A stretch of DNA of 37,463 bases. Source: Lentilactobacillus farraginis DSM 18382 = JCM 14108 (GTDB taxonomy: Bacteria > Bacillota > Bacilli > Lactobacillales > Lactobacillaceae). The translations under genes and the position numbers were made by a program. Shown in pieces: positions 18,205 through 37,434 of this stretch. The notes below the pieces were generated by a model. It was not told where the DNA came from. It searched no databases and was given only the letters and a program-made list of their open reading frames with translations. The stretch covers positions 1 through 37,463 of the forward strand of contig NZ_BAKI01000026.1 in NCBI RefSeq assembly GCF_000583655.1, read 5' to 3'. How positions within the stretch are numbered: position 1 is the stretch's first letter; the number at the start of each line of letters is the position of its first letter.

Positions 18205-18411
18205 GTGCGATGAGTCGAGAAAGATCACGCGGCTTTGTGCCGTTCGCGCAAGCGGCTAGGTGATATTTTGGATAACGGGGCACATTTTAAGCACGGATTT
18301 GTGGTGTCTGACTTTGACGGATTGTGGAGTCCAAAAAGTCTATTCGCACCAATGTGGTGTGGGTACCGTTAAAAAAGGCTGACCAAAAGTAAAATTTTGG
18401 CCAGCCTTTTT
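18205..18411 (+). ncRNA. Candidate structured non-coding RNA, family not recognised
   Basis: About 207 bases with their own promoter and a strong terminator and no normal-sized gene. The predicted 5' end GTGCGA (18205-18210) pairs with TCGCAC (18344-18349), closing a 145-base domain. Inside are AUCAC/GUGAU (18224-18228/18260-18264) enclosing GCCGUU/AA-CGGC (18239-18256), and GACUUU/AAAGUC (18310-18315/18335-18340) capped by GGA/UCC. CACCA-AUG-UGGUG (18347-18359) competes with the closing helix, and UAACGG/CCGUUA (18273-18278/18366-18371) is a further long-range pairing. It lacks SRP, RNase P and tmRNA signatures. Size and closing helix would suit a 6S-like RNA or the Lactobacillus Lacto-usp class, but I cannot confirm this. 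Two tiny reading frames lie inside (see findings). Confidence 0.5.
18373..18411. terminator. Strong bidirectional terminator
   Basis: AAAAGGCTG-a-CCAAAA (18373-18388) pairs with TTTTGG-c-CAGCCTTTT (18395-18410); flanked by A6 and T5. It ends the structured RNA and, from the other side, the MDR oxidoreductase gene. Confidence 0.9.
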
Positions 18412-30536: not shown

Positions 30537-30594
30537 ATAATCTGAAAAAAATTTACGCACAATGCTTGCGAAAATTCTTTTCAGATTATATAAT
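30537..30594 (+). promoter_or_regulatory. gnd promoter inside a 12-bp dyad
   Basis: -35 TTGCGA (30566-30571), 17 bases, -10 TATAAT (30589-30594). ATAATCTGAAAA (30537-30548) and TTTTCAGATTAT (30578-30589) are perfect inverted copies; the right arm abuts the -10 and the -35 lies in the loop. It may be an operator or, for readthrough RNA from yfhO, a hairpin. Confidence 0.65.
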
Positions 30595-30651
30595 AATTCT
30601 CGTAAAGAACAGTTGAGAACTAGTATATTAGACGAAAGAGGTACGATTCTT

Positions 30652-31553
30652 ATGCAAATTGGTATGATTGGTTTAGGAAAAATGGGTCTTAACCTGGTTA
30701 AGAACATGATCCGTAACGGTAATGAAGTGGTTGCATTTGATTTAAACGAAGATAACGTTAAGCTTGCTCAAGAGGCCGGTGCAACACCAGCTTCAAGTAA
30801 TGAGGATCTTGTTAGTAAATTAGATGCCCCTCGCACGGTTTGGATTATGGTACCGGCCGGCAAACCAACTGATTCAACAGTCCAAGAACTTATCGGTTTG
30901 CTTTCAAAGGGCGATTACCTGATTGACGGTGGTAACTCATTCTATGAGGATTCAATTCGTCATGGCAAGTTGGCTGAGGAAAAAGGCATTAACTTCTTTG
31001 ACTGTGGTACTTCGGGCGGTCAAGACGGTGCTTTAAACGGTGGTAACTTTATGATTGGTGGTACCAGCGCCGAAGCTTTCGAACACTTGAAGCATTATTC
31101 GATGGCATTTCACAAAAAGATGGTTACCTTTACACTGGCAAACCGGGTTCAGGCCACTATTTAAAGATGGTTCATAACGGCATTGAGTACGGTATGATGG
31201 AAGCCATTGGTGAAGGCTATGATGTTTTGGATCACAGTCCTTTCGATTATGACAATGAAGCAGTTGCGAAAGTTTGGGTAAATGGTTCTGTTATCCGTGG
31301 CTGGCTTATGGAATTGGCACAGGAAGCCTTTGCCAACGATGCCAACTTGGATCAGATCAGTGGCAAGATGTTCTCATCTGGTGAAGGTAAATGGACAGTC
31401 CAAGAAGCGCTCAAGCAAGGTATTCCGGTTCCAGTTATCACTGATTCATTGTTTGCCCGTAATCGTTCAATGGAACAAGATACCTTTACAGGCAAGGTTG
31501 TTTCAGCATTACGTCACGGATTCGGTGGCCATGCAATGGATATGAAGAAGTAA
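30652..31553 (+). pseudogene. gnd: 6-Phosphogluconate dehydrogenase, decarboxylating, short form (one-base frameshift)
   Basis: Converts 6-phosphogluconate to ribulose 5-phosphate, CO2 and NAD(P)H, feeding phosphoketolase. Restored length is 300 residues, matching the short (often NAD-linked) class rather than the 470-residue form. It has the Rossmann motif GMIGLGKMGLNL, substrate-binding FFDCGTSGG and catalytic KMVHNGIEYGMMEA. The frame breaks near 31093 (AAGCATT; doubling C gives AAG CCA); after it the sequence reads ALFDGISQKDGYLYTGK. The open frame begins at 30562, inside the promoter; ATG 30652 follows AAAGAGG. For a central enzyme, a sequence error is more likely than gene loss. Confidence 0.92.
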
Positions 31554-32784: not shown

Positions 32785-33963
32785 ATGTCCAAAGTTTTAA
32801 TTGTTAACGCGGGAAGTTCTTCTTTAAAGTTCAAGTTATTTGAAATGCCAAAGGAAACGGTTCTCGCGGACGGTCAGGTTGAACGGATTAATCTGCCGGG
32901 CTCGATTATTAAGATCAAGTACGGGGACGGCGAGACGTTTAAGCAGGTTGAGGACAATGTTGATTATGAACGTTCGGCAGCAATTATGCTGAATAATTTA
33001 AAAGATCTTGGCGTCATTGACCATCTCCACGATATTGATGCAGTTGGTAACCGGGTAGTTGCCGGCAGCACTGTTTTTGATAAGGTTGCCAAGATTGATG
33101 ATAAAGCACTGAACTGGATTAATGAACTAAGTGAAATTGCGCCGATTCATAACCCGGTAGAGGCCGAATACATTCAGATTATTCGCCGGATTCTGCCGGA
33201 AACTGATCAGTATGCGATTTTTGACAGTGCTTTCTTTAAAGACGTGCCGGAAGTTAATGCAATTTATGGCATTCCGTATGAATTAACCAAGAAATTTACG
33301 ATTCGTCGATATGGCGAACATGGTATTAATCACGGTTACATTACGCAAAGGGCTCAGGAATTACTGGGGTATAAGACTGCTAAATTGGTTACGTTGCATT
33401 TGGGATCCGGTGCTTCCGTTGCTGCCGAAAAAGATGGCAAGTGTGTTGATACGTCAATGGGCTTTACGCCAATGAACGGTTTGACGATGGGCACCCGTTC
33501 CGGTGATGTTGACCCGGCATTGGTACCATTCTTTATGAAACGCATGGGGGCTTCGGCTGAAGAAGTAATTGAAATGTTTAATGACCGTTCCGGCTTGTTG
33601 GGGATTTCGGGAGTTTCTTCAGACATGCGGGATTTGGAAAGCTCAGATGATGATCGTGCTAAATTGGCGCTGGATATCTTTGTCAATCGAACGGTTAAAT
33701 ATGCGGCCAGCTACATTACGGAACTTGGCGGCGTTGACGCAATTGTCTTTTCCGGTGGCATCGGTGAACATGATAAGTGGGTCCGTGAGCAGGTCTGCAA
33801 GAAGCTGGAGATTTTTGGTATCAAGTTGGATGATGCGTTGAACGAAAAGCAAGCTCCCGGAGATTTAAGTACTAAAGATTCTACGGCAAGAATTTTGTTG
33901 ATTCCAGCCGATGAAGAATTGGCAATGGTTCGGGACGTGGCTGATGAAATGAATGCTGATTAA
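32785..33963 (+). CDS. ackA: Acetate kinase
   Basis: 392-residue cytosolic kinase converting acetyl-phosphate and ADP to acetate and ATP, the energy-yielding exit from the phosphoketolase reaction. Signature 1 is VLIVNAGSSSLKFKLF at the N-terminus; the middle has VTLHLGSGASVAAEKDGK and MGFTPMNGLTMGTRSGDVDP, and VFSGGIGEHDKWVR is near 325. Full length. An in-frame ATG at 32767 exists, but the protein family starts at MSKVLIVNAG (ATG 32785), which has GGGGG ten bases before it. No hairpin terminator is seen between its stop and the next promoter. Confidence 0.96.
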   Translation: MSKVLIVNAGSSSLKFKLFEMPKETVLADGQVERINLPGSIIKIKYGDGETFKQVEDNVDYERSAAIMLNNLKDLGVIDHLHDIDAVGNRVVAGSTVFDKVAKIDDKALNWINELSEIAPIHNPVEAEYIQIIRRILPETDQYAIFDSAFFKDVPEVNAIYGIPYELTKKFTIRRYGEHGINHGYITQRAQELLGYKTAKLVTLHLGSGASVAAEKDGKCVDTSMGFTPMNGLTMGTRSGDVDPALVPFFMKRMGASAEEVIEMFNDRSGLLGISGVSSDMRDLESSDDDRAKLALDIFVNRTVKYAASYITELGGVDAIVFSGGIGEHDKWVREQVCKKLEIFGIKLDDALNEKQAPGDLSTKDSTARILLIPADEELAMVRDVADEMNAD

Positions 33964-33980
33964 ATTTCTTCAAAAAATTG

Positions 33981-34034
33981 TTTACAATTAGAAAATAATG
34001 AGTTATCATACTTAACAATTAGAAAACGTTAAGA
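33981..34034 (+). promoter_or_regulatory. Promoter of the T-box operon, with 12-bp direct repeat and cre-like site
   Basis: -35 TTTACA (33981-33986), 17 bases, -10 TATCAT (34004-34009). ACAATTAGAAAA occurs at 33984-33995 and 34015-34026, 31 bases apart. AGAAAACGTTAAGA (34021-34034), just past the expected start, matches 12 of 14 cre positions. Confidence 0.55.
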
Positions 34035-34040
34035 AAAAAG

Positions 34041-34316
34041 CAACGAAAAGCAGGAGTAGATGATTTTCCTCGTTAAGAGAGCTTCTAATTGGTGAGAAGA
34101 AGCCTTGGGAGATTGTCGAAAGTAGGCTTTGAGCTGTAGATGCGAATGATTCATTGAGTGTCTACTGGATGCCACCATTACAAGGCCAACGACTACAATG
34201 ACAAGTTGTGTTCGTTAAGATCGGCTCTTTTGAGTTCGATAAAATCAAGGTGGTACCGTGCGTTAAAACGCGCCCTTCGATGTATATTCAATATATACTC
34301 GACGGGCGCGTTTTTT
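34041..34316 (+). promoter_or_regulatory. T-box riboswitch leader, specifier GUA (valine)
   Basis: Stem I: AAAGC/GCUUU (34047-34051/34126-34130), an internal loop with AGUA on the left and GAAAGUAG (34118-34125) on the right, an 11-bp helix with wobbles (34059-34069/34107-34117), the AAGAGAG bulge and distal hairpin GCUUCU/AGAAGC. Loop layout is the same as in B. subtilis glyQS, which puts the specifier at GUA (34122-34124), valine. T-box sequence AAGGTGGTACCGTG (34247-34260): UGGU fits a tRNA ending ACCA, as tRNA-Val does. Antiterminator: AAGG/CCUU and GUGCG/CGCGC around the UGGUACC bulge. Competing terminator: AAAACGCGCCC (34265-34275) with GGGCGCG and T6 (34304-34316). Uncharged tRNA should turn on the downstream genes. 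Confidence 0.88.
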
Positions 34317-34352
34317 GTTGCTTTCTTGTTGTTATGAAACGGAGGACTATGT

Positions 34353-35099
34353 ATGACAATTAATAACTTATTAACTTATTTGGATCATCGGCCGGAGACG
34401 ATTATGCCGGCATCAGGAGATGGTCGGACATTCAGTGCTTTGAGTAAAGAAAACTTTCCTGCCATTTTAATTGATGGAACGTTAACCAGTCAAAATCTGA
34501 TCGCTGAAGATTCCCAGGGAATGCTGACATTATCGGAATATGCCAAATTTTTGCGGGATATGCGGTTAAAAAAGACCGGTTTATTGATTGCCGACCTGCA
34601 GTCGGGATTTGGAAATCCGTTGAATACCTATTACGCTGCTAAAGAATTAGAGCGCTCCGGCGGCGACATTCTATTACTCAATGACCAGACGTATCCGGCC
34701 CACACAACGACCGAGCCGATGACGACAACGCCGGAAGAATTGATCGGTAAGCTTCGGGCGGCCAAAGACAGCTTGGAAAATCCGGCAACCCAAATCTGGA
34801 TTAAGTTGGAGGGGCTTCATTCATATGGCATTGAAGGCTTAATTAAACGCATTCAATATTTAGCCAAAGCTGGTGCCGATGCAATTGTCATTGATCACTA
34901 TGATAACCAGCAACTATTGCAATTGACCCAAGTTGGACTGCCACTACCGCTCTTGGCAACCTGGGAGCCGGGAATTGATCAAATCGACGGTATTACCGGC
35001 TGGCTTGACAAAGGATACCTGTCAACGGTTATTCAGCGGGCGCAGAGCCAAGCAATTAATTTTATTAAACAGGGAGGACTTGCCTATGCTGAAAAATGA
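34353..35099 (+). CDS. Isocitrate lyase/PEP mutase-family protein lacking the catalytic Cys motif
   Basis: 248-residue protein with the TIM-barrel layout of the PEP mutase/isocitrate lyase superfamily: AILIDGTLTSQNLIA, IADLQSGFGNP (cf. ADADTGYGD of the next gene), LLLNDQTYP (cf. IEDQVWP) and KAGADAIVIDHYD. Where active lyases have KRCGH after the Asp-Gln strand it has AHTTTEP, so the catalytic Cys is missing. It may be a non-catalytic partner or have another reaction. CGGAGG precedes ATG 34353. First gene after the T-box; its last 14 bases overlap the next gene. Confidence 0.75.
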   Translation: MTINNLLTYLDHRPETIMPASGDGRTFSALSKENFPAILIDGTLTSQNLIAEDSQGMLTLSEYAKFLRDMRLKKTGLLIADLQSGFGNPLNTYYAAKELERSGGDILLLNDQTYPAHTTTEPMTTTPEELIGKLRAAKDSLENPATQIWIKLEGLHSYGIEGLIKRIQYLAKAGADAIVIDHYDNQQLLQLTQVGLPLPLLATWEPGIDQIDGITGWLDKGYLSTVIQRAQSQAINFIKQGGLAYAEK

Positions 35100-35991
35100 A
35101 CGAATGAGAAGGCAATTTAAAGATGAAGTTATGAGCGGTCACATTGTTCGAATGATGGTGACGCCGGACGCATTGGCAGCAAAAATTGCGGCATCAGAAG
35201 GCGCCCAGGCGGTCTTTTCCGCCGGTTATGCGACAAGTGCCTCGGCTCTGGCAATGCCCGATCGGGGAATCACCGACTTCGGGATATCACTGGAACGCTG
35301 CCGCCAGATTATTAATGCGGTGGACATTCCGGTATTTGCGGATGCCGATACCGGTTATGGCGATTTGGATAACATCAAACGAACCGTTGAAAATTATGAG
35401 GCAATCGGGGCTGCCGGCATGTTTATCGAAGATCAGGTTTGGCCAAAACGTTGTGGTCATATGGACGGCAAAAAAGTGGAACCCGTTGAGGTCTTGGAAG
35501 CTAAGATCAAAGCCGCCAAAGCCGCCCGTAAGCATGACAACTTTTTGATAATGTCTCGAACGGATGCCCGGGCAGTCTACGGTTTGGATAACGCGATTGC
35601 CAGAAGTAAACGATACCAGGCGGCCGGTGCAGACTTGATTTTTATTGAAGCACCACAAAGTGTTGCCGAGCTTAAGAAAATTCACGAAGCTTTTCCAAAA
35701 ACGCCGTTAATGGCCAATATGATTGAAGATGGCAAGACGCCGTTAACCAGGACTGAGGATTTGGAGCGGCTGGGCTTTAATATTGTAGTTCACCCCACCG
35801 CTATGACTTATGCACAGGCCTTTGCCGAAAAGACGCTAATTGAAACGCTGCGGCGGGATGGGACGACCAAAGCCTATAAGAATCATATGATTACCTTTCC
35901 GAAGTTCAATGAATTTGTTGGTTTGGATAAGGTGAATGCCCGGGATGCCAGCTATTCGCCCGAAAAAATGCGGGCTGAATACATGAGCTGA
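35086..35991 (+). CDS. Isocitrate lyase/PEP mutase-family lyase (PrpB-like)
   Basis: 301-residue cytosolic enzyme of the methylisocitrate lyase/dimethylmalate lyase/oxaloacetate hydrolase group. It has GYATSASALAMPD, metal-binding ADADTGYGD, and MFIEDQVWPKRCGHM with the catalytic Cys, then IMSRTDARAVYG, FIEAPQS and MANMIEDGKTP. It probably cleaves a 2-hydroxy diacid to pyruvate or a related product; the exact substrate cannot be read. AGGGAGG (35071-35077) fixes ATG 35086, inside the end of the previous gene, so translation is coupled. An open frame reaching back to 34933 is only overlap. The T-box upstream suggests a link to valine shortage. Confidence 0.87.
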   Translation: MLKNERMRRQFKDEVMSGHIVRMMVTPDALAAKIAASEGAQAVFSAGYATSASALAMPDRGITDFGISLERCRQIINAVDIPVFADADTGYGDLDNIKRTVENYEAIGAAGMFIEDQVWPKRCGHMDGKKVEPVEVLEAKIKAAKAARKHDNFLIMSRTDARAVYGLDNAIARSKRYQAAGADLIFIEAPQSVAELKKIHEAFPKTPLMANMIEDGKTPLTRTEDLERLGFNIVVHPTAMTYAQAFAEKTLIETLRRDGTTKAYKNHMITFPKFNEFVGLDKVNARDASYSPEKMRAEYMS

Positions 35992-36009
35992 CAGGACACC
36001 GGTCAATTT

Positions 36010-36077
36010 CCACATAGCACCCGAATTGGGTGATACACATAGAAATAAACATAAACAAGCATTGTGTACACATAGAA
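36010..36077 (+). repeat. Intergenic hairpin and repeated TACACATAGAA
   Basis: CACCC-gaatt-GGGTG (36018-36032) is a hairpin without T tract. TACACATAGAA occurs at 36034-36044 and 36067-36077, 33 bases apart, with a third partial copy CACATAG at 36011-36017. It lies between the lyase gene and the MFS gene and shows no promoter I can defend. Confidence 0.5.
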
Positions 36078-36123
36078 CATCATCACACATAAAAAAATAA
36101 CTTGCCAAATGGAGGAATTGCCA

Positions 36124-37434
36124 ATGGCTGATAACATATATCATCAAAGTAATGCTTATTCTTTAGAGACCCGATTAAATGATGCCCGGGAAACGCCACT
36201 ATTTTATAAAGTCTTTGCATTAGCGGGTGCCGGGATGATTCTGGATGCCGCCGACGTTTATATGGCAGGCGCAATTAACAGTACGCTGATTCAGGACAAA
36301 TTCGCGAGTATTTCCCAAGGGTCGCTCTTTTTATCCAGTGGTTTTCTAGGACTCTTTGTTGGCTCAATTCTAGCGGGCTATATCGGTGATTTTTATGGTC
36401 GGAAACTATCTTACCATTTTAACCTGCTCTTATTCGGCCTCTTCACGCTGCTGTCAGCTTTTGCGCCGAATATGACCATCTTGATTGGGTTGAGATTCTT
36501 CGCGGCGGTTGGCCTGGGCGCTGAAATTGTGACCGGCTACGCGGTGGTTAATGAATTCGCACCGATTAAACGTCGGGGCCACTGGTCGGGAATGACGGCA
36601 ATTGTCGCCAATACCGGCGCTCCGATCACCTTACTGATCGCTTCGTTTATGATTCCCCGCTTCGGCTGGCGGTCGATGTTTATCACAATGGGCGTTTTAG
36701 CCCTGATCCTATGGTTGGCCAGAAGACATTTTCCGGAATCCCCTCGGTGGTTGTTGGCAAAGGGGCGGACTGAGGAAGCTAATCAAATCATTGAAAAACT
36801 AACGATTAATGGTCTTTATGAAAAAGATGAGTTAAAGGATGCCGATGAGCCGACTATTCACATTTCATTTGCCCGTGGTCTGTTTATCGCAATTGTTGCG
36901 GTTAGCGCGACGCTGTTGTGCCAATATACATTTACCTCCTGGGTACCGACATTACTGTTAAAGCAGGGAATTAACGTTGTTGATTCAATCGGGTTCTCAG
37001 CCATCATGATGATCGGTGCGCCGATTGGTTCGGCTATTGGTGCCTTGTTAGTTGATAGAACCGGCCGCAAGCGGCTGATTTTAACGGCATTTATTGCAAC
37101 GGCTGTTTTGGGCATTGCTTATGCTTATGAGCGGAGTACGCCCGGTATTCTAATTAATGGTTTCCTGTTGACAATTACGTTATATATCTTGGTAGCGTCG
37201 GTTGTCAGTATCTATACGAACGAACTATTTGAAACTTCCCATCGGTTCAGGGGTGCCGGGATTGCCAATGGCACGTCCAAGTTGTTAAATGTGTTGATGC
37301 CGACATTTGTGGCCATGATGATTACGCAGGTTTCACCGTCGTTTGTTTATTATGCTATTGCCGGGTTGGCTATTATTGCTGCAATTATCATCTGGCTGTT
37401 TGGCCCGGAAACGGATCAAAAAGCAATTAAATGA
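36124..37434 (+). CDS. MFS transporter (metabolite:H+ symporter-like)
   Basis: 436-residue membrane transporter with 12 hydrophobic segments. Motif A between TM2 and TM3 is GYIGDFYGRKLSYH, and FPESPRWLLAKGRTEEAN after TM6 is the signature of the sugar porter/aromatic acid and other metabolite symporter groups. An acidic central loop follows (about 220-240). It is thus more likely an importer of an organic acid or similar metabolite than a drug pump. ATG 36124 has GGAGG at 36111-36115; an upstream start at 36109 overlaps that site. As third gene after the T-box it could bring in the substrate of the two lyase-family proteins (inference). The last 29 bases of the window contain nothing further. 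Confidence 0.87.
   Translation: MADNIYHQSNAYSLETRLNDARETPLFYKVFALAGAGMILDAADVYMAGAINSTLIQDKFASISQGSLFLSSGFLGLFVGSILAGYIGDFYGRKLSYHFNLLLFGLFTLLSAFAPNMTILIGLRFFAAVGLGAEIVTGYAVVNEFAPIKRRGHWSGMTAIVANTGAPITLLIASFMIPRFGWRSMFITMGVLALILWLARRHFPESPRWLLAKGRTEEANQIIEKLTINGLYEKDELKDADEPTIHISFARGLFIAIVAVSATLLCQYTFTSWVPTLLLKQGINVVDSIGFSAIMMIGAPIGSAIGALLVDRTGRKRLILTAFIATAVLGIAYAYERSTPGILINGFLLTITLYILVASVVSIYTNELFETSHRFRGAGIANGTSKLLNVLMPTFVAMMITQVSPSFVYYAIAGLAIIAAIIIWLFGPETDQKAIK

Follow-up and report, generated by a model that had tools for sequence, protein, structure and literature searches.

T-box riboswitches, peptide-coded attenuators and the phosphoenolpyruvate (PEP) mutase/isocitrate lyase superfamily of enzymes are all known. 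Two members of this superfamily matter here: the petal death protein, a plant enzyme that we take to cleave (2R)-2-alkylmalates, and PrpB, the 2-methylisocitrate lyase, in which the Arg coming after the motif ANLTEFG presumably holds the extra carboxylate of the substrate. On contig NZ_BAKI01000026.1 of Lentilactobacillus farraginis DSM 18382, of which the whole stretch analysed (37,463 nucleotides) is called the window below, a valine-type T-box stands before two genes of this superfamily, orfA and orfB, and a gene for a transporter of the major facilitator superfamily (MFS). We propose, and give the proposal an even chance, that this would be a salvage operon induced by valine starvation, importing a 2-alkylmalate and cleaving it to a precursor of valine. 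The target of the riboswitch and the salvage route are probably new. In a literature search no gene of the lyase kind was found behind a T-box, an earlier listing being possible in the supplementary regulon tables of PMC3766115 (15 Lactobacillaceae), which this search did not cover; passages from the main text of PMC2494555 contain neither 'lyase' nor 'isocitrate', and those of PMC3766115 do not contain 'prpB'. A search for a superfamily member that cleaves isopropylmalate gave nothing on point.

The features of the locus are listed in Table 1. The leader matched the Rfam covariance model RF00230 over its full length (model positions 1-219), with 116.1 bits for a gathering score of 93 and an E value of 3.1e-25, in agreement with the complete T-box seen in the sequence-only reading of this DNA. 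In the model alignment, the consensus specifier (uuc) falls on GUA, in the context GAA-A-GUA-G-GCUU-UGAG. Across 11 aligned leaders GAAAGUA is invariant, and the helix beginning one base after GUA varies on both strands (by eye, AAGC/GCUU in the window, GAGC/GCUC in L034 and L037, AAGA/UCUU in L039; a script located the 5′ partner in 7 of the 11 rows). Because this adjoining helix covaries at a fixed distance in the relatives, the register of the specifier is GUA, the codon first proposed, and the registers AGU, UAG and AAG were ruled out. The sequence-only reading had presented UAG and AAG as the one-base shifts; this is right for UAG, whereas AAG lies two bases off and the other one-base shift is AGU. 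Specifiers of other T-boxes in the same genome served as controls: valS gave GUA in the context GAAA-GUA-GC (script), and those of pheS (UUC), tyrS (UAC), argS (CGU), his (CAC), trp (UGG) and BrnQ (AUC) were read by eye, the synthetase and biosynthesis codons agreeing with expectation. The genome also encodes a tRNA-Val with anticodon UAC and, in the copy read, discriminator A, which fits the UGGU of the antiterminator as had been suggested. RNA folding gave a hairpin having its 5′ strand in common with the antiterminator. A simple consensus scan of positions 33900-34400 found no terminator, presumably missing this hairpin owing to its internal loops, and the fold was preferred to it. Folding of whole leaders as single strands misses the canonical stem I and was left unused as a test. 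The promoter-like site matches the consensus at 10 of 12 positions and is weak, 2 such sites having been found for 1.6 expected in shuffles. We conclude that control of the operon by valine is strongly supported by these sequence comparisons.

Table 1. Features of the T-box operon, in positions of the window.
Feature	Position	Strand	Basis
Promoter-like site TTTACA-17-TATCAT, upstream of the leader	33981..34009	+	consensus scan, weak
T-box leader RNA, valine type	34034..34280	+	Rfam RF00230, 116.1 bits
Specifier codon GUA (Val)	34122..34124	+	RF00230 alignment, leaders of relatives, pattern script
Antiterminator UGGU, pairing partner of the tRNA-Val ACCA end	34251..34254	+	sequence, RF00230 alignment
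Terminator hairpin with T run, in competition with antiterminator formation	about 34268..34316	+	fold; absent from consensus scan
orfA, 248-residue PEP-mutase-family protein without the lyase Cys loop, likely non-catalytic partner	34353..35099	+	profiles, alignment, model
orfB, 301-residue lyase of the PEP mutase/isocitrate lyase superfamily, predicted 2-alkylmalate lyase	35086..35991	+	profiles, PDB matches, motifs, model
MFS transporter, predicted organic-acid importer	36124..37434 (frame 36109-37434, better-placed start 36124)	+	NCBIfam, Pfam

A search of relatives, which had been suggested as a check, recovered the same order of T-box, lyase genes and MFS gene. Forty distinct copies of the operon were compared (the window, L031-L046, L081-L100, L102, L159 and L160; L101 repeats L046). 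The Rfam survey covered L031-L050 and the window, and the assignment of the remaining leaders rests on the T-box core and the specifier pattern. T-boxes above the gathering score precede the operon in 11 cases (10 of the 20 loci L031-L050, and the window), and T-box-like leaders were found in 27 of the 40 copies. The specifier is GUA in 24 of these 27 (23 by the pattern script, L086 from the leader scan). In L042 and L043, both at 67.5 bits and below gathering, gaps in the specifier loop of the Rfam alignment left the codon unread, and L099, just under gathering with 89.8 bits, has AUC (Ile), read by eye from the Rfam alignment. In four other copies (L044, L045, L046 and L096) the T-box is replaced by a valine-rich leader peptide, for example MTKVSKLAQTSATVVVVLLLS in L046, with a layout of stems 1:2, 2:3 and 3:4 and terminator-like hairpins ahead of the gene. 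An isoleucine-rich peptide (...IAIQIIII) was found before one copy, L097, in genome G032, which also holds the valine-type L096. Runs of VVV or IIII occurred in 23 of the 1388 short frames of five loci; 5 of these are the leaders, and as 18 of the 1383 other frames have such runs too, a run alone is no proof, the rest being added by position, ATG start and terminator folds. Weak peptide matches before L040 (an Ile/Leu-rich frame), L083, L093, L094 and L098 were unconvincing and were scored as none.

Valine shortage as the signal, proposed from the window alone, is thus backed both by the GUA leaders and by the valine-rich peptides of the four copies that have no T-box. The same reading had held that homologous leaders with differing specifiers would refute it, and this was found in part, as the AUC T-box and the isoleucine-rich peptide. 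L096 and L097 group as sisters in the orfB tree (100/96), and the valine/leucine-type L046 has L099, on a long branch, as its sister (100/98), meaning that the isoleucine switch arose at least twice. Since the nearest relatives are of the valine type, and isoleucine is the chemical neighbour of valine in the pathway, we read the isoleucine-type leaders as a change of specificity and not as a refutation of valine control.

Profiles and motifs confirmed that one operon holds a gene of the lyase family, its catalytically altered paralogue and a transporter gene of the metabolite type, the start of orfB overlapping the end of orfA. OrfB scored 143.6 bits with PF13714 (PEP_mutase, cut-off 31.5). 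It carries the motifs DADTGYGD, EDQVWPKRCGH, SRTDAR and ANMIEDGKTP, in which DxD, EDQ and KRCGH are intact, and the full catalytic set is kept in 38 aligned OrfB copies. Its best sequence match in the PDB is the petal death protein (1zlp, E 2.3e-58), followed by 4iqd (6.1e-48) and a PrpB (9.6e-48), all PrpB-type chains being at 6.1e-48 or weaker. F-EAP and ANMIE-GKTP occur in OrfB as in 1zlp, and the subsequent Arg of PrpB-type chains is missing from OrfB. Both variants, whose use as a mark of alkylmalate lyases is our own assignment, are present in OrfB, and on that basis it is predicted to belong to this group. Among the 50 Foldseek matches listed for its AlphaFold2 model (predicted local distance difference test, pLDDT, 84.7), 1zlp has the highest identity, 39%. 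By sequence, OrfB is nearest to the petal death protein, though not far from a true PrpB.

OrfA also belongs to the superfamily (PF13714, 39.0 bits), and with TIGR02317, the PrpB model, it reached 44.3 bits for a cut-off of 354.4. Its motifs are altered: DxQ replaces DxD, so that the second metal Asp is gone, nDQ replaces EDQ, and KRCGH is missing. In the alignment it thus lacks both the DxD metal site and the Cys loop of an active lyase. The predicted structure (pLDDT 88.0) had 1zlp as its first Foldseek match (template modelling score, TM, 0.81; 19% identity), and a PDB sequence search gave a marginal match to PanB (3ez4), which at E 0.27 is not significant. OrfA probably lacks catalysis of its own and acts as a subunit with a structural or regulatory role. 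Its gene adjoins orfB as a separate frame in 38 of the 40 copies (split or short in L033 and L100); the two are fused in L095 into one frame of 546 residues, and L093 has only a remnant of orfA.

OrfA-like genes were also seen elsewhere, behind valine-type T-boxes in the ilv loci of six genomes (L106 1482-3870, G000:C127:127985 on, and L171-L175), two of which, G012 and G050, have no orfB match. The specifiers of these T-boxes, read by eye, are GUA in G000 and G088 and GUU in G012, G050, G081 and G108. In 5 of the 6 loci ilvA follows the orfA-like gene, and the unit is mostly divergent from ilvB-ilvC. A paralogous orfA-orfB group (L083, L098, L100 and L102) has a divergent MFS gene, a regulator-like gene of 461-464 residues (split in L100) and no T-box; the substrate of these paralogues may differ.

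The MFS protein of the window is above the cut-offs for MFS_1 and Sugar_tr, and its best subfamily listed is TIGR00895 (aromatic acid:H+ symport, AAHS), with 176 bits for a cut-off of 418.55. A related MFS gene lies downstream in 27 of the 40 copies (in split frames in L034 and L093) and divergently upstream in 4. In three copies a dicarboxylate carrier of the MatC_N/CitMHS type replaces it, as judged by Pfam in L040, by 54% identity to L040 in L160, and by eye in L159.

We then turn to the genomes that carry orfB. Of 397 sampled genomes of Lactobacillaceae, 33 hold orfB relatives at E 1e-40, at 37 places and in 11 of the 40 genera. At E 1e-60, relatives occur in 5 of 325 genomes from the order, including 3 that lie outside the family. 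A search of the species collection gave 20 orfB loci, 16 of them in Lactobacillales. Among the 33 carriers, 20 have ilvD, 18 ilvC, 29 the branched-chain aminotransferase gene ilvE_II (28 over cut-off) and 28 leuA. Throughout, leuA means a short LeuA-like protein: none of the 397 genomes had an NCBIfam leuA match over cut-off, the matches stopping near position 380 of 494. Such matches occur in 85 of the 397, and the Lactobacillaceae LeuA-like proteins seem to be without the C-terminal regulatory domain. Both leuA (28 of 33 carriers, 57 of 364 non-carriers, Fisher p 3e-16) and ilvD (20 of 33, 36 of 364, p 5e-11) are enriched in carriers, in figures uncorrected for kinship.

Thirteen of the 33 carriers have neither ilvC nor ilvD (G002, G032, G067, G115, G149, G180, G185, G216, G237, G249, G274, G334 and G372); G249 is a single-contig genome of completeness 100. 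Of these genomes, ten retain ilvE_II, five (G002, G149, G185, G249 and G334) are also missing leuA, and in 11 at least one copy stands behind a valine-type leader, the others being G149, with none recognised, and G334, with the AUC T-box. As ilvC and ilvD are missing, neither pyruvate nor acetolactate should become valine in these cells. Control by valine shortage makes most sense there if the product lies between dihydroxyisovalerate and valine, i.e. is 2-ketoisovalerate. The sequence-only reading had offered pyruvate or a branched precursor as the product; the former is now disfavoured and the latter favoured.

The operon could then work as follows. Uncharged tRNA-Val(UAC) would pair at two sites, the GUA of stem I and the antiterminator UGGU, allowing read-through into orfA, orfB and the MFS gene; this T-box step is strongly supported by the sequence. 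The transporter, MFS here and of the MatC/CitMHS type elsewhere, would import a branched dicarboxylic hydroxy acid, and OrfB, with non-catalytic OrfA as a possible partner subunit, would act as a 2-alkylmalate lyase, splitting R-C(OH)(COOH)-CH2-COOH into acetate and R-CO-COOH. We infer that the substrate is a 2-alkylmalate, most simply 2-isopropylmalate (R = isopropyl), which would yield acetate and 2-ketoisovalerate, one transamination away from valine; the isoleucine-type copies may handle the sec-butyl homologue. By our reasoning, (2S)-2-isopropylmalate is spatially equal to the (2R)-alkylmalates of the plant enzyme, as the naming priorities swap. According to passages of two papers, yeasts release 2-isopropylmalate and it is present in wine (PMC8535518), and it is among wine or grape metabolites (PMC7397323). 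The full scheme has, in our estimate, somewhat less than an even chance: lactic acid bacteria would take up 2-isopropylmalate from yeasts or plants and split it, free of coenzyme A, by means of a lyase of two proteins, the inactive one of which is shared with the ilv loci, under control of a T-box in most lineages and of a valine-coded attenuator in others, and so obtain valine (isoleucine in the re-specified copies) by running, in effect, leucine's first step backwards.

Several observations weigh against this salvage reading. PrpB (TIGR02317) is the best NCBIfam model of OrfB, with 249.7 bits, under its cut-off of 354.4, and Foldseek ranks a PrpB (3eoo) first for the OrfB model and 1zlp eighth. 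By sequence, the 'PrpB-like lyase' of the outset nevertheless lies nearer to the petal death protein. Cleavage of 2-alkylmalates by the latter is here an assumption, and no catalytic detail in OrfB tells isopropyl from smaller alkyl groups. Neither leader type was recognised in 8 of the 40 copies (L040, L083, L093, L094, L095, L098, L100 and L102; for L095 the contig has only 341 bases upstream), four of which (L083, L098, L100 and L102) sit beside another regulator, and the two copies L097 and L099 are isoleucine-type. Six of the 40 copies (L086-L090 and L095; L089 has a different MFS gene) have no related transporter gene beside them. Twenty of the 33 carriers do have ilvD. Finally, the product of leuA, present in 28 carriers, is the presumed substrate of the lyase, with the risk of a futile cycle, and leuA would be superfluous for leucine were 2-isopropylmalate freely imported; a switch controlled by starvation would limit this conflict, not remove it.

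The PrpB scores, together with catalytic motifs common to both enzymes, leave some room for a true 2-methylisocitrate or citramalate lyase, giving pyruvate with succinate or acetate, valine shortage then being a proxy for carbon or amino-acid stress. We consider this unlikely, as the PrpB score stays under the curated cut-off and as pyruvate should not relieve valine shortage in the 13 carriers devoid of ilvC and ilvD; moreover, no prp genes lie next to the operon in the loci listed, a genome-wide search not having been made. The genetic argument for 2-ketoisovalerate would hold equally if OrfAB produced it by another reaction of the superfamily, such as ketopantoate cleavage (PanB reversed), or from another branched acid. 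To this can be added a GUA T-box before a PanE/ApbA-family gene in the same genome and the marginal PanB match, which is however not significant and concerns OrfA only. OrfB carries the Cys loop of carboxylate-releasing lyases, and three copies have a dicarboxylate carrier in place of the MFS protein, so this explanation, too, has but a small chance.

Since OrfA-like genes stand without orfB behind valine-type T-boxes, in the ilv loci described above, OrfA might instead be the functional core, a non-catalytic regulator or binder of branched-chain amino acid enzymes, with OrfB a mere companion. That the whole catalytic set persists in 38 aligned OrfB copies, and that the transporters point to an external substrate, makes this rather doubtful. 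A last possibility is that the meaning of the T-box was lost or changed, a valS-type leader having been copied before unrelated genes. T-boxes are known to duplicate and switch, according to passages of PMC2494555 and PMC3766115, and in this genome 49 matches to the T-box model reach E 0.001 or better, of which 12 exceed gathering. Yet the GUA of 24 of the 27 operon T-boxes, spread over more than one family, and the valine-rich peptides that substitute for them elsewhere, make such an accident very improbable.

Other observations were made along the way. Three PanE/ApbA-family genes lie behind T-boxes (L104 5263-6267, G000:C121; L108 1734-2846, followed by an aminotransferase-like gene; L114 1641-2663), one of which reads GUA; they are perhaps 2-hydroxyacid dehydrogenases recovering branched 2-oxo acids. 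A T-box with the specifier perhaps AUC precedes a 2-keto-4-pentenoate hydratase-like gene (NCBIfam below cut-off) at L008 365-1195 (G000:C81), and at L115 (G000:C98) leuA has tandem leaders, a T-box and then the leucine-rich short frame MTMTGVNTSVNMNQNVFETAALLALLL. In the window, a 6-phosphogluconate-dehydrogenase-like gene (30562-31553) is in two frames; since leuA, ilvC and ilvD are likewise split in this assembly, it is likely to contain indel errors. Positions 18206-18332 match the Ref68 / Lacto-3 small RNA (RF02840, 79.4 bits).

If the salvage reading is true, genome-scale models of lactobacilli, in which carriers without ilvC and ilvD are called valine auxotrophs, would overlook a salvage route to a branched-chain amino acid; a conserved gene pair annotated merely as isocitrate lyase/PEP mutase family would be explained, and yeasts and lactobacilli would have a concrete cross-feeding link in wine, silage and sourdough. 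That RNA mechanisms of two unrelated kinds, both reading tRNA, precede one operon in different genera makes a natural test of how one amino-acid control replaces another.

Compared to known systems, the leader is a T-box of transcription antitermination in its full-length match, specifier, UGGU and competing terminator, and differs in its target, an operon of lyase, pseudo-lyase and organic-acid transporter for which the papers searched gave no counterpart. OrfB resembles PrpB in fold and catalytic motifs, and differs from it in scoring below the NCBIfam cut-off, at ANLTEFG and at the following Arg. With the 2-alkylmalate lyases, represented by the petal death protein, it shares the best sequence match, the motif variants and the fold; the differences are an identity of ∼39%, the obligate-looking inactive partner OrfA, and the setting in a bacterial operon controlled by an amino acid. 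The leaders of L044-L046 and L096, for their part, are like those of trp, ilv and leu attenuation in their short frame with a valine run, alternative hairpins and terminator, the difference being that here peptide-coded attenuation takes the place of a T-box found before the same operon in other species.

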